Source: Marchantia polymorpha subsp. ruderalis (Eukaryota > Streptophyta > Marchantiopsida > Marchantiales > Marchantiaceae). From it: DNA of 64,000 bases. Position 1 is the stretch's first letter. Each line of letters begins with the position of its first letter. The notes beneath the pieces were generated by a model. It had not been told where the DNA came from, searched no databases, and saw nothing but the letters and a program-made list of their open reading frames with translations. The DNA lies in contig AP031352.1 of NCBI GenBank assembly GCA_037833965.1, positions 25,400,501 to 25,464,500 of the forward strand, read 5' to 3'. Below are positions 1,966 through 28,387 of this stretch, piece by piece. The position numbers and the translations under genes were made by a program.

Positions 1966-3700
1966 AATTGACTTGCTTGCCTTGATGGGTGGAATCTTTA
2001 AGCAAAGGTTCTGTTTGCGACGATGTCATGCTGAAAAATTCCTGCCTGCCTTGCAAAAATGCCCTTCTATGTCTCGGAAGCTCGAGTCTCAGATATGCGT
2101 GATTGACAGAACTGAAGAAGCAGATCCACGAATCAAACTCGGAATCAAACTTCGCTCTCGAGACGGGTTCCAGTCCACAATCACCTGTAGTCACCACCAC
2201 GCCTTCACAGCCCCATTACCATTCCTCGCCTTCGGAGCAGCAGACACAGCAGACACAGCAGGCCACTAGTCCACGAGTCCACTGCGAGCCCACGAAGCAA
2301 GCCACACCTCACTCACCACACTGCGCTACGCTTCCCTCCATTCCATTCCATTCGGCTCCGCTCCTCGAAAGAGCGATGCCCCTCTCTCTCTCTCTTCCGT
2401 TCCCCTCTGAGCCCGCCCTGCCTTCTGTAGGGATCACGCTCCTCGCCCGGCTCCTCGGGTCCCTTGCTTCACTGCAGCCTCACGGCCTGCCCTGCCCCTC
2501 GCCCTCGGCCTGTCCGCCCTTTTACTTTACAGTACTTTGCTTCCCCTCCCCTCCCCTTGCCTTGCCTTCCGCGTCCGGTGGGGTCCAGTCCGCGACTGCT
2601 GCTCCTGCGGGGTTCATCATAGCATCGGCATTCGGGGGCGAACGGAGAATCCTACAGATTCCGTCCACCGGGCACGGATGGAGGAGCTCCTGGATCCCAG
2701 GAGGGCGGGGAGTGATTGCTGCCCGGCTGGCCGGCCAGTTGGCAGAGGGTGCGGCACGCCCACCTGGGATGCGGTTGACTCATCGACCGCAACCGCTGTG
2801 AGCCGAAGGGCGGGTTGGATGGATGGATGGAGGTTCGGGAAACCCTGCTGGACTAGCCCCTCCTGAGCCTGGCGCATCGCATCCATTTGACTGCTTTGAC
2901 TCGTCAGTCTTGTCCGCTGGGCTATGCCTCGCTCCCGTCGAGACATCTGTCGCGCTTGCCACTAAGGCCACGACATGTGGGACATCTCCGATTTCGTCCT
3001 CCTCCGCGTTCTTTGGTTCCGTGGAGGGACTCCCGGTCCCTTGATCGGGCCAACTGCGGAACCCGGCTTTCGTGCGACTGGAAAGTACGCGTGACCACTG
3101 GACGCTGCCCGCGTGCGCTCCCGAACGAGTCCCGTGTTCTCCACAAAGCTGGACGGACCCGACGGAGGGAGGGAGGGACGAGGCTCGTTCTTCGGTTGGC
3201 CCAGATGTGGGAACCGTGACACGACGGCGAAGCGGACGAGGATCCACGCCAGAGTTCCGACGCTTACCGGGAGGTACCTTGCTTCGGGAGCAAATATCTC
3301 CTACACGCTTGCCTCCGCGCAAGGGCTTCCCGACGAGAGGCGGTCACCGGCCACGCGGGCTCGGCTTTCTGGGCCTGCGAATGTGAGAACGCATTCACGT
3401 GCATCCGCAAATGATCATGCCAGATCCGGGACGACTAAAAATAGAGCACTAATGATGTGCAGCCGTGACTGTCTGTCCAAGGGCCTCCTTCGGTAATCAT
3501 TGCCATGGTGGCCTTTCCTGTGACTCGGCTCAGGTCGGGACTCGAAAGGCTGCCATCCTGATCTGCCGAGGACCCGGAATCAAGAGTCCCTCGTTTCCGG
3601 CACGAGACGAGCATGGCCCGTATGAGGAGCAGGCCTCTCTAAATACGGAAAATACAGAACTCAAGAGTACGATTGTCGCATTTTGTTTTTAGAAAGTTAC
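1966..3700. other. GC-rich stretch without a recognised gene
   Basis: GC-rich and CpG-rich from about 2200 to 3600, with long pyrimidine-rich runs at 2320-2560 and a short ATGG repeat at 2817-2833. It contains several overlapping ORFs on both strands, all of low-complexity Pro/Ser/Arg composition, which is what GC-rich noncoding DNA yields. It lies directly upstream of the minus-strand coding-like region, so it may be its promoter/CpG island; that is inference. Confidence 0.4.
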
Positions 3701-3708
3701 CTATTTGT

Positions 3709-4131
3709 TATCTAGGTGGTTTTACTAGAGACACTAACGGAATCATTCAATTAAAACTTTGGAATGAAGGTTTGTGACCATTTTTTTTTTTTATCTAGGT
3801 GGCTTTACAAGAGAAACGCTCAACAAAAACTTTGTGGTGTCGAAGTGTGACAATGCCTTCGTTGGTCTAGGTGGCTTTACAAGAGAAACTAACGGACACA
3901 CTCAACTAAAACTTTGTGGCGACGGTTTTTGACAACGTCTTAGTTTATCTAGATGTCTTTCCTAGAAACACTCAACTAAAAATTTGTGGTGACAGTTTGT
4001 GACAATGTCTTCGTTGATCTAGACGTCTTTCCTACAAACACTCAACTAAAACTTGGTGGTGACGGTTTGTGACAATGTCTTCGTTGATCTAGATGTCTTT
4101 CCTAGAAAACTAACGGAGTACTTTGCGGTGA
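3709..4131. repeat. Tandem repeat, about six 70-80 bp units
   Basis: Six imperfect units begin near 3709, 3790, 3863, 3943, 4014 and 4084. Each starts with a form of TATCTAG(G/A)TG(G/T)CTTT, runs through ACTCAACTAAAACTTTGTGG and ends TGTGACAATGTCTTCGT. The last unit is truncated. Units 4 and 5 are the closest pair. No coding potential. Confidence 0.85.
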
Positions 4132-5996
4132 CAAATGATGAGTTCAACCAAGCAAGTTCTAATTTTTTGATTCCTTGCTTACCTCAGGAACTTGTAGTTT
4201 TGAAAACACAATAAAAAGTTGTTTAACTAGTTTTAAAATATCAAGATCGTCTTAAAATTTTCTTGGGAACGAAAGGACATGGGTAAAAAAGTGAAAGTCA
4301 ACAAACAACTTCTGATTTTTGTGTCCTGAGAACGTTATGAAGTCAATGTTCTCGGTTCACAAAAATCTATTGACTAAACAGTATGATTCCAGGTAGTAAG
4401 AAAAGATGTACTCAACTCATGGAATTTTTGGGAGAATTAGCTTGCCCATTCGTTATCTGTGTAAAGTGATTTATCAAAACTAAAATGGGAAAATTATATT
4501 CAAAAGAAAAAAAACACCATTTGTCCATCGAAGTTGTATTACATTGCCGTCAAATTTAGCCGAAAAAGTGAAATTTTAAATCAAGATTCGACAGAAAACT
4601 GTCAAATTCTTCATATTCCATGAATTGAGAATTATCCTTATTTTGTTGAGATACGGAATGATGAGAAAGCCCTGTCGACCGCGGGAGGACCGCGTCGGTG
4701 GAGTAGATGATTGTGCGGCAGATCGAAGACCCGGGCGCTCCACCGTAAACCTCTGAGCTCGAGCGTCCGGCCGGGCGGTCGACGTGTCGCGGCAGCGGTG
4801 AAATGCGATGACACGAAGGACCGTCCGTCCGTAAGGACGGAAGCTGCCCCGCGACCTTCAGATATTTGCCGACCGTCTGTCTCGACATCTCGGCAGCCCC
4901 GACGACAGCGACTCTCGTCGACGATCGAAATCCAGGGGCGCATTGGTCGCACTTATTTCATGACAAGGGATTGATCGACCCAATGGCCTTCGGACAGACC
5001 CGAACAAAATCTGTGGACTCGCCAGGGAACATTCGCTTTCATCCGTCAGTCTTTTGAGCGCAAGGCGGAAGCACTCGAGCAGACGCCTGTCGAGGAATCA
5101 GTCGGACGACTCGGAATGAGGTCGCCAACAGAAGGACGTCGGAAACAGCTGAAAAGGTGACGAATCGAAATTCGATTCCATTCATTCCGCGAGCGTATCA
5201 GAATGTTGAAAGTTTTGTTTTCATCGCAGTGTAATTCCCGAAGAGGAGAGGGATGCAGACATGAGGGCCCCTGATTCCTTCCTTACCTGAAGGAGCGTCG
5301 CTCCTCTGAGGGACGTGGAGCGACGCTCGAGCTCGGACAGCTCACCAGTGCGAGTGAGTTGGATCGAAGATCCTGAGAGCAGCGTTTGCATCCCGTTCCT
5401 CCTCGGGAATTGAATTGTGATGGAACGGTGGACCGATGAAGATTCTTCGAGCCCGAGGTGGACAGAGTGCACTTTCCCGTCTCGATCGAGCACAGCAATC
5501 CATGACTCGATCGATCGATAGAGCGAGCGAGCGAGCAATACAATATAGAAAAGGTATTCGGTGATGGCAAGGCCTCCCGACAGACCAGCTCGATCCTGCC
5601 CCACTCGCCGATTGGATGGCGATGGAACACAATCTAAGAGCGAATCAGAAGCAGTCACAAGCGAGCGTCACTTGCCTCCCACCTACTCCTGCTGAACGGC
5701 ATCTGATCGTCGGCCGCCACGGCCGCCCATCAGTGTGAGTCACCGTTCGGTTCGAAGGTCGACGTGCGGTCCAAGAGCTTCGCGCTATCGAGAGGCTCAA
5801 ACTCCATTCGCTTAAGCGGCCACATGATAGGCAGGCAGGCGATCCAGAGGAATCGCACTAGCTCTGGCACCTCGGGAAAAACAATTGCCCAAACACTTGC
5901 ACCGATTTGTCACTGCTACCAATAGCCAATCCCGCCATGGGCAGCGGCCACCGCCAGTACGAGCTACACATCCCTTCTCTACTCCCTTCTGGGCAC
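4132..5996. other. No recognised gene
   Basis: AT-rich to about 4640, then GC-rich to about 5900. ORFs present overlap on several frames and show no family motif. A short (GAGC)n-like run lies at 5520-5535. Nothing further supported. Confidence 0.4.
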
Positions 5997-7672
5997 TATC
6001 CCATCGCTCTGCATACTCGCATGTGCTGAGGTTAAATGAGGACCTCTAGATTTTGCGCATCTCCTGAATGTGCTCGTAACACTTTCAGCAATGCTCTTCA
6101 CGTATGCCTCTGCTGAGACTCATTCGCATGGATGGAACGACGGCATTGGATTTACACCCCCTTACCGCACAAATGAAATGATCCTCGAATCAGAGTTTTG
6201 GTTGCACCTTCGGCGGTCCTTGAAGTTCAGAAGGTGATGAAGATTCTCGTCGAGTACAGTCTGTAAACATCAAATGTCATCAGAAAATGTGGATTGTCGT
6301 CGGCACACAAAACCGTCTCCATCCAAGTACCTCAGTGCCGTGTGGATGGAACATGAATCAGGAGTAGTCTGACGAACGTGATGCAATACTGGAGACGAGG
6401 CGATCATTTGCCATTTCGTGGTGGTGTACTAGACCGACGTATCTCCTCATGTCATACCTTGCTTTTTGAAAGGAGGCGGTCATTACAACTGCATGAGGTG
6501 CATCACCAGTACAGTACGAGGCAAGCGTTGCTGCGAAAGCCTGTGGCTGCAGCGCCCGAAGAAGGATTACAATTGCAACCATCAATCATCCTGACTACAC
6601 CGTACTCAAGACTGCATTGCATCGCTTGTTGTGATCATGAGCTTCACGAATGGATGGGTCGGAGGAGAAGGGAGAACTCTTCGTAAACTATGTGGCAACA
6701 TTCCGAAACTAGAAGCTAGAATGTGGTGCCCTGTTCGATTGTGCTTCGTTGAGATTACCTTTCATGAGGGACGCCTCACCCTCGTCTCGATACGGACTGG
6801 TCATCCTGAAAATTCTTCAGGATGACCACTCCACTCAAATCAAATCTCGTCCTCTCCTTTGCACCGATTCTTCTGTTTCTCACATTTGCATCACAGTTGA
6901 AGATTTTCCTCCGTATTGAGGAGGACTTTCTTCTCTTTCGCCACAACGCAGTCCGATGAGATTTATGCTGCAGTGGAGTTTTATATTCCCAGCACGTGTC
7001 CACAACGCTCCACTCGATGGGTTCAGGCTGAGGACATTCGTCTTCGACTGACGCGCGTTGTTTATGCCTTCCCACCTTCCACCTCGATGTCCTGGTATTC
7101 GGATTCAAAACCATGTCTGTCATTGCCAAGATCTTGAACTTGATATTCTGACTCGTTATGTTCCGGAGATTTTCTCCGTTGCACACTAATGTACTTAGAT
7201 GTTCTGATTTTGACTTTTCACCTTTCACGGTCTCTCATGGCATCACAAGCGCTTACAGGGGAGCCCGTCTGTCGCTTTCATACAGATGTAGTTTCATCAT
7301 ACAGCTTCGAAACTCCAACCTCGATGCAGCAGATCTGTTCACTCTCCAGAACACGAAAGTAATTCGAAATCTCGATCCAGGTCTGAATTCCTTCGAGACC
7401 ACAAGCATGTAAAGCACTACTCCATGGAGTGGACATTAAAGGCTGGCAGAATTTGTCAAAGCTGGAGCATGATAATTGCCTTAAAGGAAGACGTCCAGAG
7501 ACAGTTGTCCACCCCAGCAAAGAGGCCTCCCCCTAAGAGAACTCATCACTACAACATATTGCAGATTCAATCATGTAAATCATTATCATCTAAAAAAATG
7601 TATGATGTTGGTCATATTTATGCTTCATTTTCTGTCTCAATTGAATTTCCAAGATTACTGCTATGACATTCT
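5997..7672 (+). repeat. Block R1, repeated in direct orientation at the right edge of the window (R2)
   Basis: From TATCCCATCGCTCTGCATAC at 5997 to 7532 the sequence matches 61828-63060 with few substitutions, and 7599-7672 matches 63931-64000, which runs off the window. R1 holds about 250 bp (roughly 6694-6946) and about 60 bp (near 7290-7350) that R2 lacks; R2 holds about 870 bp (63061-63930) where R1 has 66 bp. Conserved minus-strand ORFs (about 6776-7228 in R1, 62518-62826 in R2) share EDECPQPEPIEWSVVDTC, but I recognise no family, and plus-strand ORFs overlap them. Confidence 0.85.
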
Positions 7673-8867
7673 TTTATCTTTAACCCAAAAAAAAAATCGT
7701 TCTAAAAGTAGACGCCATGTGAGGCTGAATATAGTTAATTACTAATTTAATATTTATAAAAAATATTCCTAATTCACTCAATATTTTTTTCTAAGTAACT
7801 AAATATTTTTAACTGAATTTTCAATTGAGATAATACTGAATTTTTATATTCAATAGTATAATTTTAATTAACAATAGGTCATACGTATAATTTTAAAATT
7901 CATATAATTTTGCAAATGGAAACTTAAATTAGCGAAACTCATGAGAAGAACTCACAAATTTATTTCATTTTCTTTGAATTTATAGAAGATATGTAGTGAG
8001 AACTGTTAAATAGATTTTAAACAATCATAATTTTCTTAAAAAGAACTTAAACTTTTCCTTTTCTTCAAAACTTTGTATTTATTTACTCACTTACTTATCT
8101 TATATTTATACCCATGAATCCATTGGATTTAAAACTAGAAATTTGAAGCTCTCTACACTGAAAATTCCATGTTATAGTGCTCTGAATATGCTTTTTTGTG
8201 TTGAAATTACTCGGAATCTCTTAACTACTTCATGTACAATATTTTGTTAAAATCCAAAGTTTGGAAACTAACACATAAACATAAAAAAAGTATGTTTTGA
8301 GTTGTTTTCAAGCCATGAACTATAATATATAAAAGATTGTTAAAACGAGGATTTAGGTTAAAGACCTCAAGTTTAATATAAATTAATCTTCTCTCACTTT
8401 GTATGTTGATAGCAAGGTTTTGTTTAGTGGTGATTTTTAATTAAATCAGTCCAAATTTTAGCGATTATTATGGTGGCACTCGGCCGCCGCAAGTTGGTTT
8501 TTCAAATACAATGTTTTTCACGTAGTAGTGGCAGCAAAATTAAATCAGCCAAAGGCTGCCGCCATTATGGCGATAGCAAAATTAAGTGTAGCCGCAGGCT
8601 ACTGCCACAACCGTTACATGGCAGTTACAGCCGGATGTGGCGCATCCTTTTGATTTCCTTGTCCACTCTAATCATGTTACGGCCGGATGTCCGCATCCTT
8701 TTGATCTTGCGACATTTTGATTCCCTCGTCCACCCGAATCATACTCTGATACGTCTTGCAGCTCGAGAAAAAGTTCATCAAAAAACCAAGAATAAAAGAA
8801 AGAATGTGGATGTGGTCCTGCAACCTCCGGGCTGACTCTCACTCAAGTTTATCTCAGATGGCTTTTT
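7673..8867. other. AT-rich stretch without a gene; short internal duplication
   Basis: 7680-8460 is strongly AT-rich with no long ORF. At 8470-8600 there are short GC palindrome-like runs (AGCCAAAGGCT, AGCCGCAGGCT). At about 8630-8760 a segment of about 55 bp (GCCGGATGTGGCGCATCC … then a GTCCAC stretch) occurs twice in imperfect tandem. Confidence 0.4.
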
Positions 8868-9599
8868 TGTAACCCATCATGGTTCTAGAACACTATGATA
8901 TCTCATCATACTCATAGCCCAAAGACACTCACACAATTTCAATGTATCATTCCAACTCACACAGTCATCACCACTCCAAGGTACTAAAAATCGTCACTCC
9001 TTCATATATGAAACAAGTCTTTACATATAAACTCTCCAAACTTGCTTGAGAGGCGTTACTCTACCTTTCTATTTATACTACTTGAGAAGTTACCATAGTA
9101 ACATATAGTAATGTCTCCTAACTCACTTATACCTAGATAAGTTTGACTAACCCGATATATGTGACAACATGCCATTGACCTATCTAAACCTTCTAGAAGT
9201 TTCCGGAATCCTAGGTTGAGGTGGCGACATGCCATTTGAATCTTTAAAACTTCTAAAAGCTTCCTAGCCACTAAGTCAACATTAGACTTAATCTAGCCAA
9301 TCATCTTTCATACATTTAGTCAAACCAATCAAATCCAAGCTTATTGTCAAATATCTAATCCTTTGAAATCTAGGCTTTTGAAAAAGACAAAATAGAAGTG
9401 CTCACTACATTCTTCTATAACTCCGCTAATTATTCCGCCAACTATAGACATTATAGCTAAACTTCGTCATTACTAGATAAACTTAGTTATAACTAACTAA
9501 TTTAGTCATAACTAGCTAGACTTAGCTATATCTTGGCCAATCATCATTAACCACTTGAACTCTTCTACGACTTAGTACACATGTGCAACATCCAATCTC
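8868..9599. mobile_element. Putative LTR of an old retroelement (E0); its end recurs at 36620
   Basis: The last 138 bp (9462-9599: CTTCGTCATTACTAGATAAA … ACACATGTGCAACATCC) match 36620-36757 in the same orientation with about 10-15% substitutions, and both copies end CATCCRATCTCRCA. The right copy is cut exactly where family-E element E2 begins. I infer that this is an LTR and that it starts near TGTAACCCATCATGG at 8868; I see no target duplication or primer site, so the left boundary is a guess. Confidence 0.35.
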
Positions 9600-15576: not shown

Positions 15577-17531
15577 GAACGTCCAACGTTCTTACTGGTT
15601 ACAACGTACGCAGCCGGCTATACGGCCTAACGGTTCGCCCTTTGCATGCGCGAACTCACGTCTCCGCACTGCGCGCATTCGCATGCGTGAATGTTGAATT
15701 CTCCCGCCGCCGCCGCCTTCCGGACTCGAGTCCGCCGCAGGGTATACGTCGGCTATGTTGTCTTTCCCTAACCCGTTCATCACCGGAGGCGTGTCGCCGC
15801 TGGCGTGTTCCTTATCCATCGGCGCCTTGCTGGAGGCGCACATCCAGTCGGAGCGAATGACGCCGGCGCGCATTCGTACCGCTTATTTTGTCCTTTATGC
15901 CTCGTCCATTGCTGACGGCGCATATCCCGCCGGCGCAAATCATGCCAGCGCAGTCGGCCATCAGCGCCACGTCGGAGGCGTACATCCGACCGGCGCTTTC
16001 CTTCCATGAGCAGCCGCCAAAGGCGCTTCCGACTCTGAGTTGGTTTCCTCCCATGAGCGCGCGATTCCGCCGAAGGCGCATCGCCGAGGGCGTACGGGAG
16101 TCCTTTCCGGCTGTGAACCCTAGCGCGAACGGCGCATGTCCGGCTACGAGTTTTCCAACGCTCATAACTTCTCCGTCCCTGATCCATATCCAACGCTTTT
16201 GGGCTCGTTAGAACGAGCGTCCCGAGCTCTTTCTAATGTGACTTCAACCAACTGGATCTACCGTGTATTCCGATCGTTATGAAGGTTTTCCCTTTCCGCG
16301 CTAGCGGAGCATCGCCGAAGGCGCACTCATGGTCGGACGCCTTCAGAGGTCCGGGCCGTTCTTCTGATGTCTTTAGCAAAACCTCCTCCTGATGTGTCTG
16401 CGCCAGAAGCGTAGCTTCCTTATACGTTGGAAGCGCGTGAGTAGATACACCTCAGAAAAGGAGCTTTTGCCAAAGGCGCCGAAGACATTGGCGTTGGTAC
16501 ATCCGACTACGCGATTCTTCGTGACCTCGTGACGATCTCATCAATCCACTCTATTTAACGTACCCTTTTCTAACTACAAACACTGCTTCGGTACTAGTTT
16601 TCTAAAATTGTTTAAATTCTGCAAAAAAACAAAAAGTGTGTTACCACAGGCACCACCCTCCATGCGGGCTCTGAAGGTATAACCCCTTCGGCGCAAGGCG
16701 CAAAATCCGCCTTCGGCACCAGAGGAATCCTTCAGAATTTGGTCAATTCCCAAACGCCTCGACTTGGTTAGGGACTTGTTGGAAAGAGCTCGATGCGCTG
16801 ATTCTAACGAGCCCAAGAACGCCACGAACGGATGAGGACTCCGGGAGTTATGAAGGTCGCAAGATACTTAGCTTTCCGCCTACGAGTAGGCGAGGAAAGT
16901 TCTCAGTGAGTCCTTCAGTGCAGACCTGTGTTCTATGCGCGTTTTGTGAGTTGAGAGTGTTGTTCACCGCGTATGAGTGACTTCGATCCGAAGTAGGCAG
17001 TCCAAACCAGGTTTCCTACGCTAGCAGCAAGCTAGTGGAAGTGTTGTAAAAGCCGGAGTTGGGAGTCACTACCCGCAGCTTCGCTGAGTGTACTCTTGAG
17101 AGACCTTCCCCCTGAAATCTTGGGTAGAGGTCCTAACGGATCTCTGGGTTGTGTTTCTGTAGTTTGAGGTGTGTGTGTGTGTGTGTGTGTGTGTTACGCT
17201 GCACTGTGCGACCTCCGAGTGCGCTCCGAGTGGACACTTGCAGTATTTCTAGGAGTGACAGTCGCCTGAGAATTCAAACTCCTCAATAGTTTGTTGAACG
17301 TGACACTTTGTACCCTGTGTGTTCCTCTGTCCCTGTGGGTTCGACCTTTCTACCACTATATTGCAGTTTTAGCCTTTAGTGGGTTATTACACAAGCAGAG
17401 AAAATGAGTTCCTGGTCTGCACTTCCGAAACTGGAAGAATCCCAATGCAAGACGCCTTGAACTACTTTATACCTTCTAAGTCCTAACTAACACTCTACAC
17501 TACACTGCAGCACACTGCACTACACTACAGG

Positions 17532-18412
17532 TCATCTACTGTGCCTCCTGCGCGACGGAATGCCGCGCACTAACTCCATACCCGACCAGTCTTTGGCTCG
17601 AATGCGCAATCCCAGCCGCCGCAACACCGCAGTCACCTCCGCCTCAAGGGACGCCGTGGCGTCTCGCGACCTTGATAGAAACGAATCTAACTTCTTTGCC
17701 ACTCGCCGCCGGCTCCGACTGTCACCCGACATCAAACCCGCCGCACGAAGCTCTAACTTGCGCAATGTGATCTTCTCCTGTGCAGCCACTTCTCAGAGGG
17801 TGTAACCTCTGAGACAGTGGTTTACACGCTCCACCAACTCTTTTTTCGTGCGATCTGCCTCCCGTCGGCGATCGTCTTCAACCACCACTGCTGCTGCAAC
17901 TCTGCATCCGCACGCTGCGCTCTCAATTCGCCGCACTGCGATTGCAGTTGGCGGATTAAGTCCTCATCTGCCTGGCGTGCGAGCTGACACTATTCTAGCA
18001 ACCGCGTTTGTCGCACAAGCTCCTCTGACAAAATGCGATTCTGAGTCTGCTCAGAATCCAGCTCATCCGCGAGCTTCGCCTGCTCCTTGGCGAACTCCTT
18101 CTTTGCCTCCTCGAACTTGTCGTCTCGCGTCTTGTTGACTGCCTTCTGCAGCTTCCGCAAAAGAGTAATGTGGCCACGCAGGGCCTCTTTCTTCAATCGC
18201 AGATACTTGATGTCCTCATCCAAGGAAGCCAACAATTTACTGGTTCTGACTTTGGTGCGAGTTCGCCTGCGCATCAATTCGACGTAGGACCCAAGGTTAC
18301 GGGGGTCAGCATACTTCGCCACCTTGCGATCGAGATACCTCAACAGAGGTACCATCGTTTGCACAGTGCCGTCCTCGGCGTGCTTTTCACCGACTGCTCC
18401 TCCTCCTCGTCC
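17532..18412 (-). pseudogene. Family-E protein of E2, C-terminal part
   Basis: Minus-strand frames carry VPLLRYLDRKVAKYADPRNL, SYVELMRRRTRTKVRTSKLL, a coiled coil (LRLKKEALRGHITLLRKLQK onwards), then after a frame change LRNVIFSC-region residues equivalent to ITLRKLELRAAGL … DSRSRRRVAKKLDSFLSRSRDA and a basic end. These align with residues of E1 from the YLDRK block to the C terminus. The 5' part of this ORF lies 10 kb away at 28388-28859 and beyond 34248, separated by the DNMT retroelement and E3. The ORF has at least one frameshift. Confidence 0.8.
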
Positions 18413-18416
18413 GAGC
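18413..18416. repeat. Target-site duplication GAGC, left side of the DNMT retroelement
   Basis: GAGC at 18413-18416 matches GAGC at 28384-28387. Joining the flanks without one copy restores a plausible E2 reading through the acidic stretch before the YLDRK block. If two terminal bases of a circular precursor were kept, the true duplication would be shorter (2 bp). Confidence 0.7.
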
Positions 18417-18523
18417 TGTCGTGCGACTCGGTATTGCCATACATCATACATCGCTGCCATGCTCTACTCACAACTCACACATACATACACAAGGAACGAG
18501 AGTGTCCACACTCAAAGGTATCA
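18417..18523 (-). repeat. LTR part B (U3-like), inverted copy at the left edge
   Basis: Reverse complement of 23229-23336 with few changes: from TGATACCTTTG to CGCACGACA on the minus strand. It directly abuts the start of pol. Confidence 0.9.
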
Positions 18524-19744
18524 CTCTACACAAAGGTAGAGCCACGCGGTGCGACAGGGGAGTTGGATCCTCAGAGGGGTGAGGGTGGGCGTCAGGCCAG
18601 ACTCTCCCAGTCGTTTTTGCTGTCAGAGGTGGGCAGTACTTCATCCATGAGACCTGTACCACCTAGTGGCCTTAGTGGGAGGACTCAGACATCTACGTCA
18701 CGTGTGGTGGACACGGACACACCATCTAGTGTAGTGACGCGGATGGCTAGCTTAGTGATGAGATCTCCATTATTTTCAGCTATGGAGCTGATGGACTCTA
18801 GGATTGACTTGGCTCGGGTTTTTCGTGCAGCAGCCACGTTGTGTGAACGTGGGAGTATCACTGCTACGAGTGCCGAGATAGGCGAGACTATTGGTGAGGA
18901 GCTATCCTCTACGACTCCATCGAGCGATGAGTCGACATGGCAGGCGGCAGCGGCACGGATGGAGTCCTTGCCAGCCCGACCAGCCATTGATCGGGAGAGG
19001 GTTGTCCCTGGTGTGTGTATGGTGGACAACCGGAGCGGTGTATTTCGCTTGGTGAGTGCTACAGGGCAGGTGTATGTCCCAGCCATAGTGTTGCTGGATT
19101 CTGGTGCACAGCCTTTGATGTTGGGCAAGATTGCCTGCATTAGTTTGGGAGTTCGGAGGTCCGAGTTGGAGCCTTGTCCGTTCCAGATTCAGACATCACT
19201 CGGTGGCACCGGCGACAGGTCTTACAGGATGACCAGAGAGCGCATATCAGTGCAGTTGAGGCATGGTCATGCTCAGGATAGCTCGCAGTTTGGAGTTCGA
19301 GCGGTGGTTACATCAGTAGAGTCATATGATGTGCTTGTTGGTGGAGCGGTGTTATATCCGATGGGATTTCGGATGGATTATTGGACGGAGACGGCAGCTT
19401 ATTGCCCTGGTTGGGAGTCTGGTGATGGACGTATGAGTGAGCTGCCTGTGAGGTTCATTTCTCGAGATCGACCTCTTGGATCTTCTCCTGCAGTTTTAGC
19501 CTCTATTGCGGGTTTCAGTGGAGTGCTCACATGGCCTGAGGACTTGTTGGAGGGGAACAAGTCAGCCGAGGATACTCCAGTCTATGAGGAGGTGGAGGAG
19601 ATGGTGAGTCTCGCAGCGGCAGTGTCATCATCTTTGGATGTTCCACTTTGGGATTCTTGCCACGCATTACAGCAGGAGGCTGATAGGTTGGTGAAGAAGG
19701 CTTGGAGTGAGGCCTTTTTACCAGCAGAGGCAGAGCGAGTCTAA
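18524..19744 (+). pseudogene. pol, first part: retropepsin-like aspartic protease
   Basis: Open from the LTR edge to TAA at 19742-19744; first internal ATG at 18647. The active-site motif VLLDSGAQPLML (Asp codon at 19097) and the later hydrophobic pair region YDVLVGGAVLYPMGFRMDYW are the two hallmarks of Ty3/gypsy proteases, which cut the Gag-Pol polyprotein. About 200 Ser/Thr-rich residues precede the domain. The frame continues past the TAA straight into the methyltransferase, so protease and methyltransferase were once one polyprotein. Its usual upstream neighbour gag lies elsewhere on the other strand. Confidence 0.85.
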
Positions 19745-21023
19745 GGTGGTCGGCTAGTATGTGGTCTTAGCACCCTATCACCATTAGTTACTACACCTAT
19801 CGTATGGGAGTATTCCCCAGAGGGTGTTTGTTTGCTAGATCTTTTTGGAGGGATCAGCACGGGTTTGGCTGCAGTGTTGCAGTCAGGTATTCTTGTACGT
19901 AGATACTTGTATGTGGAGAAGGACGAGACTGCACGTCGGGTTTCTTCACGACATGTTACATAGTTGATGCAGCGTTTTCCTTTGTTGTTGCCGCGATCAG
20001 CTGTTCAAGGATACCAGAAGGCGTTGCCTGCAGACATTTCATTGCTGGGGGCGCCAGACCTCGATCGAGTTGGACATATTGATTTGGTGATTGCGGGATG
20101 GCCATGTCAGGGGCACACCCGCGCTGGGCATGGAGCAGGGTTACATGACCCGAGAATCTCGGATGTTTTGGGAGATGCTACGAGTGTTACGTCATCTCCA
20201 GGAGCAGCAGACACGTTCTTCCGCATACATTCTAGAGAACGTACCATTGTTGGGTGACACTCGGGCCCAGTTGATGGCGAGTGTCCATGCGGTCAGGGCA
20301 TGGATTGGATCAGCAGTGTTGTTGGATGCTGCGAGGGTTGGTTCACGTGCTCATCGTGCACGCTTGTGGTGGACCAACCTTGTACCACGAGAGATATTGC
20401 ATCATGCGTATGATTCTGTGCATCGTGATCCTACCCTCACCGTTGACGGGATCTTGGATGTCTCTCGATACTCTCAGGTGGTGAGAGTAGCGGATAGGTC
20501 ACCCATGGCATTGATGAACCACGTAGATCAGCCTCGGATGGCTTTGCCTACGTTGGTCAGTTATCCGGCATCACATGCATATCGTGATGGGGGACCTGGA
20601 CTACTGTGGGACAGTACCCTACATCAGTTGGTGGAGCCCAACGCTGATGAGAGAGAGCGTGCGATGGGGTTTCTTACTGGTGTGACCGCGGCTTCTTCAG
20701 TTTCAGAGGCATCGCGTCGTCAGGTTTTGGGTCAGGCTATGGACCTAAACTGCTTGACATGGATTGTGAGCTTGGGTTTGGCCGAGCAACGCCGTTTGCG
20801 CGCAGATTTGGTGGTTGTTACACCACTTATTAGCTCATTGCCTACCGGGACGGTAGTGGCAATGGCTGGGGGCGACTTGCGAGATATTCGTCATCCTTGG
20901 AGTTCATGGGACGTGACGAGAGGACTTGCGAGAGTAGACGCCCATGCAGTTGGAGATGTTAGTCACGGGGAGGTTGCTACGAAGGAGGGTACGGAGAGCC
21001 CTCCTTTGGAGGAGGTGTCATAG
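19745..21023 (+). pseudogene. pol, second part: DNMT3-like cytosine-5 DNA methyltransferase
   Basis: Transfers methyl from S-adenosylmethionine to cytosine C5. Motifs in order: I, LLDLFGGISTGLAAV (about 19832); II, YVEKDETARR (about 19910); IV, GWPCQGHTRAG with the catalytic Cys (20102-20113); VI, ILENVP (20232); VIII, SRAHRARLWWTN (about 20345); IX/X, ERERAMGFLTGVT … RRQVLGQAMDLNCLTWI (20655-20770). The AHRAR-x-WW-N form of motif VIII and FGGISTGL form of motif I resemble DNMT3/DRM-type de novo enzymes more than DNMT1 or CMT. Length about 400 codons, catalytic domain only. Defects: TAG at 19961-19963 and a one-base frameshift near 20148, between motifs IV and VI. The TAG at 21021-21023 separates it, in frame, from reverse transcriptase. 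It sits between protease and RT, in the element's own reading frame, so it is cargo of the retroelement, not a host gene that happened to be nearby. Confidence 0.88.
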
Positions 21024-21761
21024 CAACCAGTGACAGTATCGCCTCTCTCTTGTGGCTCCATGGAGGAGGAGTGGGAGCCATTGATTGGTTCTCAGATCAC
21101 CGGAGGAGAGAGGCGACGGTTGATACAATTCCTACGTGACTATAGGAGTTGTTTTGCCTTCAGTATGAAGGAGTTGGGTACTTTGATTGGACCCGGCATA
21201 CGGATAGAGTTGGCTAGTGATACGCCAATCTTCCGTCGTCCCTATCGATATAGTGATATGGAAAGGGACTTGATTAAGAGTCGGACGTTGGAGTTATTGG
21301 AGGCTGGGTTAGTGGAGTTGTCGCATGGTGAGTATGCTTCAGCCACTGTTATGCCAGCGAAGAAGGATGTACATTGCAACTACACGGATATGCGGATGTG
21401 TGGAGATTACCGTCCTATCAATCGGCAGACGAAGGCCGATAAGTATGCCATGCCTACACCTGAGGAGATCTTCGATGTGGTGGGACATGCGAAGATTTTT
21501 AGTACTTTGGATCTTCGGGCGGGATACCACTTGTTGCCGATTCGAGAGGAGGACAAGGCCAAGACAACGTTTTGGGGTGTCAACTCTCACGGCAAGGATT
21601 GTTTGTATCAGTGGCGATTCTTACCCTTTGGGTTGAAGAATGCACCTGCCGAGTTCCAGAGAGTGATGGACAGGATTTTGGGTTCAAGATCGTGTTCTCC
21701 AGAGGGCGAAGAGATACCGATTGGAGGGAGCACATGTTCTCCGAGTGTGGGAGGACGGTAG
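21024..21761 (+). pseudogene. pol, third part: reverse transcriptase, C-terminally deleted
   Basis: Copies the element's RNA into cDNA. Visible: the N-terminal fingers (GIRIELASDTPIFRRPYRYS), LVELSHGEYASATVMPAKKD, RMCGDYRPINRQT, FSTLDLRAGYHLLPIREEDK with the first catalytic Asp, TTFWGVNS, and the QWRFLPFGLKNAPAEFQRVM block typical of Ty3/gypsy. After MDRILG (about 21683) homology stops: the YxDD box, thumb, connection and RNase H are missing, and the sequence passes within about 50 bases into the integrase N-terminus. The frame closes at a TAG at 21759. The frame is the same as that of the second half of the methyltransferase. The missing part means this copy cannot reverse-transcribe itself. 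Confidence 0.9.
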
Positions 21762-23065
21762 GGTACGGGTAGTACCGCATCCAACTCAAAGAGCACGCAT
21801 TGTGAGGCATGCTCATGAGGAGTTGGGACATTTTGGAGTGAAACGTATGTACAGCTTACTCCTATGTCAGTATTGGTGGCGTGGTATGCATACGCAGGTG
21901 CAGCAGTTGGTATCACGTTGCATGGTTTGTGATCGAGTGAGGGTATCGTTCAATGCCCCGACACCAGAGTTACATCCCTTACCCATCATGGGATTGGGTT
22001 ACTTGTTGGAGTTTGGACTTTGCTGGACCACTACCTTTGACTACACGACATCATCGGTATGTGTTGGTGATGGTGGAGCATTTCTCCAAGTGGATTGAGT
22101 TGGTGGCATTACCTGACAAGGCGAGTGAGGGAGTAGCATATGCTTTCCTTGACAAGGTGCTTAGTCACTTTGGTGCACCAGCTGAGGTGTTGACCGATCA
22201 GGGGACAGAGTTTCAGGGTGAGTTTCAGGTCTTGTGTGACAAGACGCTGATTGATCACCGGACTACTTTCCGAGATCATCCAGAGGCAGATGGTTTGGCT
22301 GAGCGGATGGTACAGACGGTGAAGAGAGCGTTGCGCAAGTATGGCCTACAGAAGGGGCATCTTGGGGACTGGGATATTCAGTTACCATGGTTGGCCATGG
22401 GATATCGATTCAGTCGTCAAGCATCCTTGGCTTCGTTTTCACCATATTTTCTATTGTACGGCCGAGATCCAGACTTGCCTGCCGCGATTCATCGTGAGTC
22501 TAGCGAGGTGGTGAACCTTGATGATCCAGATATGTGGGTGAGAGTGTGTTCTCAACGTGCAGTGCTCTTTCGGAGAGTTATGCTTGCAGCGTTTGAGAAC
22601 CTTGCGATTGCTCAGCACCGGGATACGTTGCGGTATGCAACTATTCGAGGAGGAGGTTATCGACCATCGATTCGTAGGTTCCGCGTGGGAGACTACGTCT
22701 ATCTACAGCAGACTGCACCGACTACGTTGGATGTGACGGCAGGACGCACTATCCTGCGAGTGCGAGAGGTGTTACCTTCTGGGGTTCCCATGTTGGAGGG
22801 TCGTGACGGTGTCGTTTGGAAGTATCATGTGCGCAAATGTGCGCCATGCCACCTCCCAAACGTGGATGGTACTATGGACCCAAGCTTGGCGATTGTACGT
22901 GCCGGCTTGAGGTGCATGTTATGTGGGTCAACTGATCAGGCGGCCCATATGTTGGTGTGTGATAGGTGTTCTAGGGGATGGCACATGTCGTGCTTGACTC
23001 CACCTATCGATGTTGTTCCTACTGGACGGTGGGTTTATCCTCGATGTACTTCAGAGGGTAGATGA
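21762..23065 (+). pseudogene. pol, fourth part: integrase with a C-terminal PHD finger
   Basis: Joins cDNA to host DNA. The zinc-binding HHCC region is read in one frame to about 22010 (AHEELGHFGV … SRCMVCDRV), then a one-base shift moves the rest to another frame (SLDFAGPLPL onwards, to TGA at 23063). Catalytic triad: Asp in LDFAGPL, Asp in VLTDQGTEF, Glu in HPEADGLAER, with spacing close to D,D35E. A GPY/F-like module follows (RRFRVGDYVYLQQ). The last 60 residues form a PHD-type zinc finger: CMLCGS … MLVCDRCSRGWHMSCLTPP … VPTGRWVYPRC, i.e. C4HC3 with the seventh ligand replaced by Tyr. PHD fingers read histone H3 tails; here it takes the place where chromoviruses carry a chromodomain. Whether this copy still folds with one missing ligand is doubtful. 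Confidence 0.88.
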
Positions 23066-23213
23066 CTTGATCTTCACATGTTATGAATTGCAGATAGGCG
23101 ACTAACGATGGGGCGACATAGCACCCGGCCTACTGGTTCGCGCACCCACGAAGGTGCATAGCATGTAGTTGTAGATAGGACTACCTGGGAGTCAGAGGGA
23201 CCTGACCGCCAGC

Positions 23214-23225
23214 TAGGGGGGCGAG
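23214..23225 (+). promoter_or_regulatory. Polypurine tract of the DNMT retroelement
   Basis: AGGGGGGCGAG directly before the LTR start (23227-23229), 150 bp after the integrase-PHD stop. This fixes the LTR start at TGTGATACC or TGATACC and the orientation of pol as +. Confidence 0.75.
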
Positions 23226-23228
23226 TTG

Positions 23229-23650
23229 TGATACCTTTGTGTGTGGACACTCTCGTTCCTTGTGTATGTATGTGTGAGTTGTGAGTAGAGCATGGCAGCG
23301 ATGTATGATGTATGGCGATACCGAGTCGCACGACAGCTGTCATGTGTATGCACGTTAGTGCAGTTGCAGATCGACGTTGGGTCGATTTGAGTTCAGACGT
23401 GTTGAGTTCGAGTTGGACGGGGAATGTTGGGAGTCGGCTAACGTTGGGCCGCGGCAGACGGGCGAGGAGCGTTGGATGAAGTCGACACCTTTTGGGGATA
23501 TATTCGAGGCGAGCTCGAAGAACTGTCAGTTCTTCGAGTTGAGCCTTTCGCGTAGGGATATGTCAGTCCCGCTAGCTTCGACTCTGATTCTACCTGCGAG
23601 TAGTGAGTTTGGCTCGACTCTCTGTATTCTTGTGTTTCGACACTGATTTT
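23229..23650 (+). repeat. Complete LTR of the DNMT retroelement (parts B plus A)
   Basis: Part B (23229-23336) recurs inverted at 18417-18523; part A (23339-23650) recurs inverted at 28069-28383. Between them is the palindrome GACAGCTGTC. Part A contains an inner inverted repeat (CTCGAAGAACTGTCAGTTCTTCGAG split over 23515-23540). This is the only place where B and A are joined. The end is set by loss of similarity at ACACTGATTTT. Confidence 0.85.
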
Positions 23651-23651
23651 G

Positions 23652-25287
23652 CTGCACCTCTAGTCACTACAACCGATGCCTCCACCTGTGCTGCACTTGC
23701 TAGATAAGGGAAATCCTCTTCCTCGTAAGAGGTGGAAGTGCTCGCCCCAGAACTCATCATAGCAGCAAGCCTCTGCTCCAACTGCTCAATACGAGCAGCC
23801 ATCGCGCTCTCTGTGGCCGAAGTAGCACTCGCTACAGGACGTCCAACTACACCGGCACCTCGACCACCTCTACCAGCACGGCCACCTCGACCTCGAGAAG
23901 CATCACCACCACGACCTCTACCACCAGATGTCAACTCTGGATGAAGGTCAAAACACCGATCTCGAGTATGACCTGCTCGACCACAGTGGTCACATACCAC
24001 CTGTGCTGACTGGGGTCTAGCCTATGAACTCTGACCTCCGGCCTCTTGGGGACAATCTCTCCGCCGATGATCCCCTCCACATGTCCAACATGCTGGTCCC
24101 TGCTGCTGGCCAGCAAACGACGGCACTAGTGCACGTGCCCCTGTATCTCTAGCGGCTGTCTGGTGTCGTGTCTGCGCTCCGCGACCCCCACCACTACCAC
24201 CACCAAAGGGTCTAGACTGTGCCGTGCTCTGCGGGACACGAGAGGTAGTAGCTGCGTCTCTAGCGAATGAAGAAGTCACCACTCTCTCCTCCACTATGTT
24301 AAGCTCAATCTTCTCAGAAATCTTCGCAAACACATAGGCCAATGTCGGTGACGCATTGCTCTAGAGAGTAACATCCCGAACCCTCCGCCGTAGCTCTCTG
24401 TCCAGTATCCTGTACCAATACTGGACCGCCTGTGCCTCAGTTACACCGTGAGTAACTGAGATCAACCGCCGCATACGAGTGTATGCCTCCCGAAGACTCT
24501 CACCAGTCTTCCGCTCAAACTCCCGGAGACTCCTCAACTTCTCCGCCCTCACCCCCTGATAGTTCTTCCTCAACCTCTTGAAGAACTCAAGAATGGGGCT
24601 GAACGAAGGTACGCAAGTAGTCTCTCCACTCGTGCTGGCAACGCCAACAGCACCGCTGGTGGTACCTGCTCCACTAGTACCATCGGTGATGCTACCATTT
24701 GCACCTCCACTAGTACCAACACCACCCTGGGTGATCGACGTATAGTTTGGAGACCAATGACGCCTCCATGCGTCAATCTCCACAGCATACTCTCTCCCAA
24801 ACTCATGGTAGTCATCCATGGGAGGCCCCTCCAGATGTTGAAACAACCCCTTCCATGCAAAGAAGGGTGTAAACAACGTGGGGTTACGCAAGAACTCCAT
24901 ATCGCACTACGTGTCAAACTCCTGGATGAAATCATCCAACTCAATGGTGCCCACTGCACCAGAGTACCGCCGTGGGCCCTTCATGGCCCCGTACATACCG
25001 TCCATGTCCCCAGTCCACGAGTGTGGGACCCTAGACAATATCACCACCAAAGATCCGCTATCTGCCACACTCCGCGCCTCTACAACCACTGATGCGCTAG
25101 GATGAGGTAGCCGATACCTCAACCCACTCCGCGTAAATCCTCCACGGTCCTCAACGGAACCCCCAAACTCCTCCGTGATGACTGACTCACCAATCGGCAC
25201 CACTGCCACAACTCCACCTGCCCTCGTCCCTGCACTAAACCTGCTCTAGCCCTACTGACTATGGGTATGAGCAACCTAACCTGTCAT
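23652..25287 (-). pseudogene. gag of the DNMT retroelement (about 545 codons, six in-frame TAG)
   Basis: A single minus-strand frame runs from ATG at 25287 to the LTR edge. Contents: an N-terminal region (VVAVVPIGESVITEEFGG), a retrotransposon gag core (FLRNPTLFTPFFAWKGLFQH, FKRLRKNYQGVRAEKLRSL, REFERKTGESLREAYTRMRR, YRILDRELRRRVRDVTL), then two zinc knuckles: CWTCGGDHRRRDC (one residue short of the CX2CX4HX4C form) and CDHCGRAGHTRDRC (canonical), followed by a Gly/Arg-rich run. Gag forms the particle and the knuckles bind RNA. The frame is broken only by TAG codons, at plus-strand 25276, 25252, 25246, 24907, 24361 and 24022; there is no TAA, TGA or frameshift. It ends VVVTRGAA at about 23652, where it runs into the inverted LTR instead of into protease. 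Confidence 0.88.
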
Positions 25288-28068
25288 CACCGCAAGAAGA
25301 CTCTCCTGGTCCAGTGGTCATCACTCCAGTCTCACCATGAGAGAAACAAAGATAGGCGACGGTGATCAAATCCAGCTGCACTATCGACAGCACACTGGAG
25401 TAAAACTACTCCGGAAATCAACGTCAACCCAGACATGGGCGCGCATCAAGAAGCCAGACTGGAGAGGATCCAAACACAAGCAAACAGCTAGCAACGACTC
25501 TCCAGCCGAAATGAAACACAGCACAGAACAACACAACACACGGGAAGTCGCCTCGCATAACGATCCCGAGTCGAGCTCCATCGCCTCCTCTCATCTTCCA
25601 CCTCCTCCCGCGCCCGCGCCTGCAACGCTATCTCGCTCATCCCATCGCAAAAAAATAATGACCTCCACGCCAAGCTATCCCGTACTTCACCTCATACCTC
25701 CACTTCACAATACAAATAGAGGCGTCGAATATAACAAATATGAAAAGCCTATCTACCCTAACTGTTTTCCATAGAAAAAAAACAAAATAGAGATAAAGCA
25801 ATATTTTTACAACCGACAAACCATAGTAAGTGAGACGAGTACAAATTCTCAATCTCTTCAGAATATTTTCCTCTCTTTTTTTTTTCTTTTTTTTTTTTCT
25901 TCCCGCTTTTCCTCTTCCTCTCCTTCCTTCCTTCCTTCCTTTTTGTCTCTCTTGTCAACTCACATTGACTTCAGCAAAGACAATTATGTCCGACGAATTT
26001 ACAAGCCTCCCTACAAATTCGGTTTGTAAAGAGCCACTATACTACTCCTGTTGATTAAACTTTCTACTACTATAATCTCAGGAACTCTAACTTACAAGAG
26101 CTTAGCAACAAAAGCAGCAATACAGGCGGACTTCAACCCTGACCGGATGTCGTATTGTACTGTCCTGTCCTCAGATCTTGATCAGAATGGTGCTCGCATT
26201 ATATTCTTCCTCACATATTCCATAAATCTGCTCGCCTCAGTACAACACATTCCGTTCCTCGCCAGAGGTCACCGTCCATTACTTCACTTCTGCCTCAGTA
26301 TTCATCATTGTACATGGAGTTTGCATAGTCTCATATATTCCGGTCGCTTTGTCCTTGAAGGATGAACGCATGAGATTCAAGGCTAATTTAAGTGCAGTAT
26401 CAAAATTGTCCAATATTTTGGTTCTGTGTTCAGGTCCACCGACGATGTTATCAAGATTCTGTAAATGAGCGACTAAAATTCGATGCTTCTGATTAAGGGG
26501 CTAACGACACAGGCCTCCGAAATGGACACGTCAAGGTGTCGGCCTATTATCACAACTAAACGCCCCATTTCTGTTCCCAGGTCAAGTTCCCTCCAGTGAG
26601 GATACTTCTGGAGAGGTTACGTGTCAATGTTGTCAAAATAGTGAGAAAAAAACAAATGCATTTCGAATCTGCCATCCCTGGCTTTACGATTGAGTGCGGC
26701 GGATTTTAAGTTCATATCCTCCACATTGATTGCCCATTCAATCACGGCACGGAATTTCAACCAAAATATTATCTTCCCGCCCATGTCACCGGAGGTCGTC
26801 CACCCATTGCGGGGATTTGAAGTATCAAGCAGAGAAATGCAAATTCATGAGCAGAAGATATATTCGTTGAGCGGGACAGATGGAGCCAAGTGGTCGATCT
26901 ACTCTACGGATGACATAGGAATAAACTCCAGCTCTATTACCAGAGGAGAAAATTCCCGTGCAAAAAGTACAGTGCAAAAGATTCCGTCTGATCACTTTGC
27001 TCACAGCCTAAACTAGGCCAAGCAGTAGACGATGATTCACTGAACTGATTGGATTCTCCATCAACTGGCTCAATCCAGTCCTCCCGTTACCCAAAGTCTG
27101 CTAGGGATATTCATCGCGCAAGCTTGTCCTCCTGCACAGACCTTCCGCCTTCTACCTCTGCGTCAACTTGAGCATTCGGTTTCTCGTGATTATAACTTGA
27201 GCCTGTGGAAACCTCGTGTAATTCTCCCGTACAGGTGAGTCGAGTGACTTGATTGCGCATCATATACGTCCTCCACCATGCCGACTTATCAAGCACTACT
27301 GGCAGCTACACTTTTAATATCGATCGGCCTAAACCTGGAACCTTCATAGCACACAGAAAGTGGGGTTGCCCTACACATCCAGCAATCGAATCCACATCTC
27401 CACTATCTCATCCTTTGTCCTTGCCGTCAAAACGTATCCATTTTTCTGCGTTGTCCAATTGTGAACGAGCTTTCGCCACTCTCTATTCAAAGTTCCGATC
27501 GACTGCTCGACTGCAACGAACCTACTAAACTCATACTCCTCCTGTGGATAAATTTCACCAAACACACGGCTGCTCCAAAATCCTACACAACAGTCCCTGA
27601 GGATGAAGAACTGTCTTCGACCCTTTGTGGAATTCTCACGTTCAGAGCATGTTTAGACAGTCACGTCTCTATGTTCAGCTTGTGATGGATCTCGAAGCTT
27701 TTGCTGGCTCTCCGTTGTAACCCGCTTCAGGACAAGGCCGTGTGCTCGAGAGTAGAGAGTTCGCATGACAGGTACGGCAAAACTGGAGCAAGCGAACGAG
27801 AGGGAGACTGTCGGACAAAAACTTTCACATAGTTTCCAGAAAAGTACCAAACACATTATCTCTAGTGATCTCTACCAAATGAGCAGGGACACAATTCTAA
27901 GAGAGAAAAGATGGGAAACAATTTGCACAAAGAAAACCACAAAGAGAAAACTGATAAAGCAGTAACAAAAACCTGAACACAAGAACGAAAGCACGAACAG
28001 AAAACCAAGAAGAACCCAAGCAAAAATCTGAACACACTACATTGACTTATACTGTCAGTTCTTCGAGT
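25288..28068. other. Leader of the DNMT retroelement, no recognised gene
   Basis: About 2.8 kb between gag and LTR part A, long for a leader. It has a pyrimidine-rich run at 25865-25940 (purine-rich on the gag strand), scattered short ORFs on both strands without motifs, and no tRNA-like primer site that I can identify next to the LTR. A later insertion here cannot be excluded. Confidence 0.4.
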
Positions 28069-28383
28069 AAAATCAGTGTTGAAACACAAGAATACAGAGA
28101 GTCGAGCCAAACTCACTACTCGCAGGTACAATCAGAGTCGAAGCTAGCGGGACTGACATATCCCTACGCGAAAGGCTCAACTCGAAGAACTGACAGTTCT
28201 TCGAGCTCGCCTCGAATATATCCCTAGAGGGTGTCGACTCCATCCAACGCTCCTCGCCCGTCTGCCGCGGCCCAACGTTAGCCGACTCCCAACGTTCCCC
28301 GACTCCAACTCGAACTCAACGCGTCTGAACTCAAATCGACCCAACGTCGATCGGCAACTGCACTAACGTGCATACACATGACA
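28069..28383 (-). repeat. LTR part A (R-U5-like), inverted copy at the right edge
   Basis: Reverse complement of 23339-23650. On the gag strand it begins TGTCATGTGTATGCACG and leads into the leader and gag. Differences from the inner copy include several C/T changes at CG. Confidence 0.9.
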
Positions 28384-28387
28384 GAGC

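Follow-up and report, generated by a model that had tools for sequence, protein, structure and literature searches.

Plants silence transposons by cytosine methylation, and a retrotransposon that encodes a cytosine methyltransferase of its own raises the questions of whether that enzyme is a regular part of the element, how it came to be there, and what it might contribute. Such a gene, a DNMT3-like C5 methyltransferase, had been predicted at positions 19745-21023 of a 64,000-nucleotide stretch of the Marchantia polymorpha genome (hereafter the window; contig C3, 25400501-25464500). We searched the genome (241 Mb in nine contigs) and protein databases for its relatives, and confirm the prediction: motifs, protein comparisons and fold comparisons agree, and the carrier belongs to a multicopy family.

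Structure of the window copy

Judged from its sequence, the window copy is a dead, rearranged and degenerate member of a young Ty3/gypsy family of Marchantia (Table 1). The original prediction had correctly identified the element, but its orientation, its extent and an internal inversion needed correcting. Alignment to the intact copy L015 placed window positions 18538-23345 forward (element 2976-8886, without 6110-7221) and 23655-25588 backward (element 2962-955), and the simplest reading would be a single minus-strand element, 18417-28383, in which the stretch from repeat A2 to the end of gag was flipped after insertion. A 111-nt inverted repeat, considered as the element's native termini, was rejected, as it arises from this inversion. 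A deletion near 21680 (element 6110-7221) has removed part of the reverse transcriptase (RT) and RNase H, so that the copy cannot be autonomous. The methyltransferase (DNMT) does lie between protease and RT, as had been proposed, but of the single stops thought to join these parts, those closing the protease part and interrupting the DNMT represent damage, and only the stop between DNMT and RT is a feature of the family, present in all 20 fetched copies. Repeats A1 and A2 are 96% identical in the window copy and 99.3-100% in each of four further copies, which makes the window insertion the older one; its DNMT DNA is 97.3% identical to that of intact copies L022, L026 and L028.

Elsewhere in the window, positions 17399-17758 resemble, at 73-90%, the DNA that lies beyond the downstream end of intact L015 (9608-9996) and are perhaps another repeat family adjoining the element. 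An ORF on the plus strand at 57698-59140, matched by Roc and COR-A at scores close to or under the cut-off, is likely a host gene; in a further plus-strand ORF, at 55596-57470, PAPS reductase is matched over a short stretch (E = 6.8e-8).

Table 1. Features of the retroelement copy in the window (strand relative to the window)
Feature	Position	Strand	Basis or remark
Target site duplication GAGC, left copy	18413-18416		Identical to 28384-28387
Whole element, 9967 bp, with internal inversion	18417-28383	-	Ends TGTC..GACA; B2 left, A1 right; 4-bp duplication
Repeat B2, right end of element	18417-18524	-	98% complementary to B1; 95% to B of L028
Internal stretch in inverted orientation (gag end, protease, DNMT, RT, integrase, PHD, B1, A2)	18538-~23650 (boundaries approximate)	+	Colinear with intact L015 2976-8886, plus A2
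Aspartic protease part (LLDSGAQ)	18538-19744	+	Sequence; DSGA in 20/20 fetched copies
Stop (TAA) closing protease part	19742-19744	+	Lesion of window copy
DNMT3-like C5 cytosine methyltransferase region	19745-21023	+	Motifs, protein match; type from intact copies
Stop (TAG) inside DNMT	19961-19963	+	Damage of window copy
Frameshift inside DNMT	near 20.1 kb	+	Frame change in translation
UAG between DNMT and RT, leaky-type context UAG CAA CCA	21021-21023	+	Conserved in family
RT, shortened by deletion also removing RNase H	21024-21761	+	PF00078, 3.6e-13; element 6110-7221 absent
Integrase part (rve match ~22004-22267)	21941-22912	+	PF00665, 1.5e-13
PHD finger, integrase C terminus	22913-23047	+	PF00628, 1.1e-8; 9.4e-11 in intact copy L018
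Repeat B1, preceded by purine-rich tract GGGGGGCGAGT	23224-23335	+	97% to B of L028; sequence
Repeat A2	23338-23650	+	85% to A of L028; 96% to window A1
Gag part (element 2962-955), in element's own orientation	23655-25588	-	Two stretches, 79% and 83% to L015
Captured host transcript piece	26112-27808	-	Two blocks ~ C5:5215074-5216874 at 97-98%; lacks one 92-nt intron with GT-AG ends
Repeat A1, left end of element	28068-28383	-	86% to A of L028
Target site duplication GAGC, right copy	28384-28387		Identical to left copy

Coding layout of intact copies

The methyltransferase profile PF00145 matches at least 123 genomic places, some of them host genes, and 20 with long reading frames were fetched, a choice biased to intact copies. 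The predicted succession of protease, DNMT and RT recurred throughout this set: in 20/20 copies Gag, protease and DNMT form one open frame (ORF1, 1351-1365 residues), followed by a UAG and then the RT. ORF2, comprising RT, RNase H, integrase and a PHD finger, is whole (1042-1045 residues) in 15 copies and split, shortened or interrupted in the other five. Pfam analysis of two copies, L018 and L028, identified the DNMT and a gag match below cut-off in ORF1, and RT, RNase H, H2C2, the integrase core and PHD in ORF2; in the translation of L018 a DSGA protease motif and a pair of CCHC knuckles can be seen, the former present in all 20. The element thus has the Ty3/gypsy traits of a CCHC-bearing gag, a DSGA protease, the order RT-RNase H-integrase, and an H2C2 and DDE integrase, as read from these two copies with gag below cut-off. 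The integrase had been described as of a PHD type, and Pfam placed the finger at its C terminus in the window copy, L018 and L028.

The codons separating ORF1 from ORF2 are TAG CAA followed by CCA or CTA in all 20 copies, and TAG CAA CCA in the window. Leaky stops of type I, typified by tobamoviruses such as TMV, have the consensus UAG CAR YYA, which every one of these sites fits; readthrough is predicted from this context alone.

Terminal repeats and insertion

Near the 3' end, a repeat termed B (85-120 bp) occurs twice, flanking a repeat A of about 290 bp, in 15/20 copies (L014 having extra copies and L016 a shortened one); in the other five the B pair was not found within the stretch fetched. 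Upstream DNA was fetched for four copies, and in each a second A, 99.3-100% identical to the first, precedes ORF1 by 2.3-4.1 kb. The terminal repeats are therefore split, in the order A...B-A-B, with outer ends TGTC and GACA. All five copies with both ends in view are flanked by 4-bp target duplications (CACA, AAAG, ATCT, TACT and, in the window, GAGC).

An ordinary gypsy element with two LTRs was rejected: the left end has no whole LTR, and A1 was found further upstream. Of the features by which Ty3/gypsy elements are recognized, two identical whole LTRs are absent and a target duplication of 4-6 bp is present; of those of DIRS elements, the split repeats are present, but a DDE integrase (Pfam, L018 and L028) and 4-bp duplications stand in place of a tyrosine recombinase and insertion without duplication. 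Since the repeats are split and yet 4-bp duplications occur, the sequence evidence indicates that the repeats are laid out as in DIRS/PAT elements and that insertion is of the DDE integrase kind. Split repeats are also found in REM1 and TOC1 of Chlamydomonas.

Spliced host transcripts in the 5' region

The stretch between A1 and gag differs between copies. In L019 it contains six consecutive exon blocks of C8:424060-426298, in antisense and encoding a Sec63 domain (6e-35), beside pieces of other loci; in L015, six blocks of C8:13218722-13221870, and in L018, two blocks of C4:1365419-1366953, both in sense by an intron test; and in the window copy, the two blocks listed in Table 1. Host intron ends were GT-AG at 12/12 junctions tested, allowing for slide from overlapping block ends. 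Four of five copies examined (L019, L015, L018 and the window) thus contain spliced host mRNA. The 5' region of the fifth, L028, contains one unbroken block, 97% identical to a single other locus (C3:5311008-5311769), with no intron visible. The piece in L019 recurs in three other copies, in one of them split, which indicates that captured pieces such as this are copied on.

These comparisons show, at the level of sequence, that reverse transcription in the Marchantia family takes in host mRNA, and this makes it plausible that the DNMT entered by the same route, as a captured spliced mRNA. LTR elements holding captured host gene pieces are familiar, spliced host mRNA being found inside maize Bs1, for example; by comparison with elements of that type, four of five copies here hold different pieces at the same 5' place.

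A DNMT3-type enzyme

In the window, motifs I (FGGISTG), IV (PCQG), VI (ENV) and VIII (AHRARLWWTN) and a motif X stretch were found where they had been predicted. Pfam detected in this broken copy a single weak PF00145 piece (19967-20167; E = 0.0046; 16.9 of 22 bits), below the curated cut-off. The open part of the frame, P0002, matches a protein annotated as DNMT with 66% identity over 99% (E = 8.6e-122), and on this comparison its identity is far beyond chance. Of 6225 candidate proteins, 200 matched P0002 with an E-value no greater than 0.001; among the 120 matches listed the closest named ones are Marchantia polymorpha entries, at up to 88% identity and, in a second search, up to 95%. A tblastn search of phages with P0002 gave no match.

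Assignment to a de novo, DNMT3/DRM-like type held for its DNMT3 part. The best match in the PDB was DNMT3A both in a single-sequence search (1.8e-10; HaeIII, 1.7e-4; 4onj, 2.9e-4) and in a profile search (1.1e-19; 4onj, 2.1e-9; DRM2, 7.5e-8; HaeIII, 1.6e-6), where 4onj, labelled 'DNA methyltransferase', is an entry that we take to be DRM. An AlphaFold model of the element DNMT was of middling quality (pLDDT 74.6, pTM 0.80), and a Foldseek comparison with the PDB returned DNMT3 entries as all 50 listed matches, at modest TM-scores (0.49-0.54 on the model). By sequence and predicted fold, then, the enzyme is of DNMT3 type, DNMT3 being nearest among solved structures. Identity as a DRM was rejected: motifs I-IV-VI-VIII-X follow one another in linear, un-permuted order.

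Among Marchantia host genes, L001 (C6:12459429) is linear and DNMT3-like, and L002 (C2:342518) and L034 (C3:19066767) are rearranged and DRM-like, with a later motif upstream of motifs I-IV. Motif VIII of the host DNMT3 reads CKRRRLYWSN; the element keeps AHRAR.

Linkage of the methyltransferase to the reverse transcriptase

A search by RT found a DNMT match within 3.5 kb upstream of the RT, on the same strand, at 115 of 150 RT places (median distance 694 bases), and at 45 of the best 50. A uniform lack of the DNMT in other copies, which would have spoken against the prediction, was thus not seen. The places were the best 150 of 2782 candidates, all at least 90% identical and thus near kin only; they were compared with 178 DNMT places, namely 121 of the 123 PF00145 places (C3:19066770 and C2:6442483 being dropped) and 57 of 145 taken as new from a second search. 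The count is a lower bound, the window itself having been scored as unlinked and the DNMT lists being incomplete; true losses are possible among the 35 unlinked places.

Substitution patterns point the same way. Mean dN/dS between two subfamilies was 0.14 for the DNMT (64 pairs). For RT, RNase H, integrase and PHD, with 26 pairs each, it was 0.05, 0.05, 0.08 and 0.13, and protease and gag gave 0.18 and 0.09. Comparisons within subfamilies, which involve few changes, gave 0.22 for DNMT and 0.42 for RT. By these measures the DNMT is under purifying selection, with RT and RNase H held more tightly (0.05 against 0.14). That the gene is a functionless passenger, captured by chance in one or a few Marchantia copies, would be in keeping with the host mRNA pieces that family copies do contain. 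This explanation is contradicted by the linkage at 115/150 RT places, by the selection just described, and by DNMT-bearing relatives in Klebsormidium, Sphagnum, Calypogeia, Riccia, Haematococcus, Monoraphidium and (in pieces) Tetrabaena, and we regard it as wholly improbable.

It is also conceivable that the domain no longer methylates DNA and serves instead in nucleic acid binding, as a structural part of Gag, or in RNA methylation. The Klebsormidium domain produced no methylation in yeast, a result its authors judged inconclusive, and they raised RNA methylation as a possibility for SymbioLINE (PMC5890265). Against such a role, the strings of motifs I, IV, VI and VIII are intact in 20/20 fetched copies and that of motif X in 19 (L028 differs), in a set biased to long frames, and the AlphaFold model matches DNMT3; we consider loss of DNA methylation unlikely.

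Relatives and origin

We assembled 148 related proteins of at least 1100 residues from protein searches and genome loci, and assigned their domains with our own profiles. A PHD finger occurs in 93, of which 92 also have a DNMT domain (the exception is P0203), a pairing enriched by design through DNMT-bearing queries and the use of the best matches of longer lists; 23 arachnid gypsy proteins, also returned, have neither DNMT nor PHD. Two domain orders prevail: RT-RH-DNMT-IN-PHD in 82 proteins and DNMT-RT-RH-IN-PHD in seven. Among named hosts, RT-RH-DNMT-IN is represented in Haematococcus, Monoraphidium and, in pieces, Tetrabaena, and DNMT-RT-RH-IN in Klebsormidium nitens (P0234, labelled partial), Marchantia and, in pieces, Sphagnum fallax (P0141); DNMT pieces alone were found in Calypogeia, Riccia, M. 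paleacea and other Sphagnum. P0279 has a full RT-RH-DNMT-IN-PHD frame and is named after GHUV01001039.1, by its form presumably a transcriptome record, which hints that such elements are transcribed. P0116 and P0240, filed under bacterial bins (Obscuribacterales and Minisyncoccia), group with this eukaryotic retroelement clade in the DNMT tree, and their bacterial placement is probably bin contamination.

Trees were built from 26 of the 86 RT-DNMT-IN proteins (12 chosen, 14 drawn randomly) plus others. The RT tree unites the RT-DNMT-IN elements in a single clade (100/99), to which K. nitens is sister (88/91). In the DNMT tree rooted with M.HhaI they form one starred clade (95/98) at a point where long branches meet; without M.HhaI the host branch falls among them, so that the group needs two changes, and a single clade is not rejected (p-AU 0.16). 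A single capture of the DNMT, followed by movement of the domain, appears likely from these trees, two captures being the alternative. The host gene L001 joins human DNMT3A rather than the elements (100/99), these two long branches being the only host DNMT3 references. Recent capture of the present Marchantia DNMT3 gene was rejected, as joining L001 with the Marchantia element has p-AU 0.003, and capture from a host gene at this one locus is rejected with it.

The original prediction noted that DNMT-bearing retrotransposons had been published in 2018 from dinoflagellates and charophytes; the report in question indeed describes them from dinoflagellates and one charophyte alga (PMC5890265). The Marchantia family is probably of the same lineage as the charophyte element: P0234 has the order DNMT-RT-RH-IN and lies among the present elements in both DNMT and RT trees, where deep order is weakly supported and the record is not named KnitGypsy-Dnmt3.

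Comparison with described elements

The kind of element is already known from KnitGypsy-Dnmt3 of Klebsormidium nitens (de Mendoza et al. 2018, PMC5890265), which similarly combines a Ty3/gypsy pol containing an un-rearranged Dnmt3 with DIRS-like repeats, the same blend as here, and shows purifying selection. Unlike it, the Marchantia family has a conserved UAG of leaky type that leaves the DNMT together with Gag, the hosts are liverworts and mosses, and the 5' region holds spliced host mRNA. The Marchantia integrase is followed by a PHD finger, for which comparison with KnitGypsy-Dnmt3 is limited, P0234 being labelled partial. SymbioDIRS-Dnmt3 of Symbiodinium likewise has a Dnmt3 within a retrotransposon, split repeats and two domain orders, but carries a tyrosine recombinase where the Marchantia element has a DDE integrase (PMC5890265). 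REM1 is a gypsy-type element of a green alga; its truncated integrase lies in a reverse frame with a chromodomain, and the portion of its description available to us does not mention a methyltransferase (PMC2774666).

A 2019 opinion, in the part available, stated that methylase transposons are not found in land plants such as tracheophytes; treating elements with DAM and with DCM jointly, it counted green algae among their hosts, and the algal members are thus partly foreshadowed (PMC6338049). A 2025 paper repeats the 2018 finding (PMC12344493). The word 'Marchantia' does not occur in the main text of PMC5890265, and the literature searched, supplements lying outside the search, yielded no description of liverwort or moss members. 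Relative to that literature, the liverwort and moss members, the second domain order in the named chlorophytes, the PHD pairing and the 5' regions with spliced mRNA are apparently new.

Possible function

In our preferred explanation, which we think rather probable as a whole, this is a gypsy family in which a DNMT3 made at the level of Gag methylates the element's own cDNA or insert, a PHD finger aids targeting, and the enzyme was gained by an old mRNA capture. Ribosomes would mostly halt at the UAG, yielding as much methyltransferase as Gag and far more than RT, and the enzyme would be located in the particle, the site of cDNA synthesis. The DNMT3 domain would add de novo methylation, probably at CG, to newly made cDNA or to the fresh insert, and DNA so modified might resemble host DNA and escape being handled as foreign or damaged. 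The PHD finger, reading histone H3, could guide integration to chosen chromatin. The lineage probably acquired its DNMT well before Marchantia arose, by capturing a host mRNA from which the introns had already been removed. In the liverwort the enzyme is encoded ahead of the leaky stop and in algae within Pol, positions that suggest a need for it inside the particle. Of the roles considered, methylating its own cDNA or insert de novo is the likeliest for the element, if taken singly a near-even call. SymbioDIRS-Dnmt3 domains produced de novo CG methylation in yeast; in Symbiodinium, DNMT-free elements have spread too, and the enzyme is therefore not required there (PMC5890265). CpG observed/expected ratios, at 0.71-0.73 in four intact copies against 0.59-1.22 in 16 window bins, revealed no strong mark of CG self-methylation.

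The enzyme could act in trans or in self-restraint, methylating chromosomal copies or host loci and so quieting the family such that it is tolerated, or disturbing host silencing. A Gag-level dose, as suggested by the position of the leaky stop, would distribute it widely; most intronless (retrotransposon) DNMT genes are silent in Symbiodinium, and slowed retrotransposition was raised as a possible benefit by the 2018 authors (PMC5890265). Self-silencing would be hard to sustain by selection within one family, and A1 and A2, 99.3-100% identical in 4/4 copies, indicate recent spread despite any such role; we doubt this explanation.

A broader picture, which we offer tentatively as something less than an even prospect, is of a green-lineage gypsy clade, spanning chlorophytes and streptophytes, defined by an integrase PHD finger and a nearly always present DNMT3 that moved once (PR-DNMT-RT versus RT-RH-DNMT-IN). 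Template switching would load spliced host mRNAs into a 5' bay. The DNMT would be an ancient product of such loading, by now an essential replication enzyme whose dose in liverworts is set at Gag level by the leaky stop.

These elements present a paradox, in that a transposon keeps a de novo methyltransferase under selection although cytosine methylation is what silences transposons. An intronless host enzyme could come to lie in an element through capture of the sort that the mRNA pieces beside A1 directly attest, and the Klebsormidium case can be re-read as one twig of a wider green clade rather than a private event. Public methylomes exist for Marchantia, and a young and abundant family in this tractable laboratory plant makes it testable whether the cDNA or the new insert is methylated, and by which enzyme.
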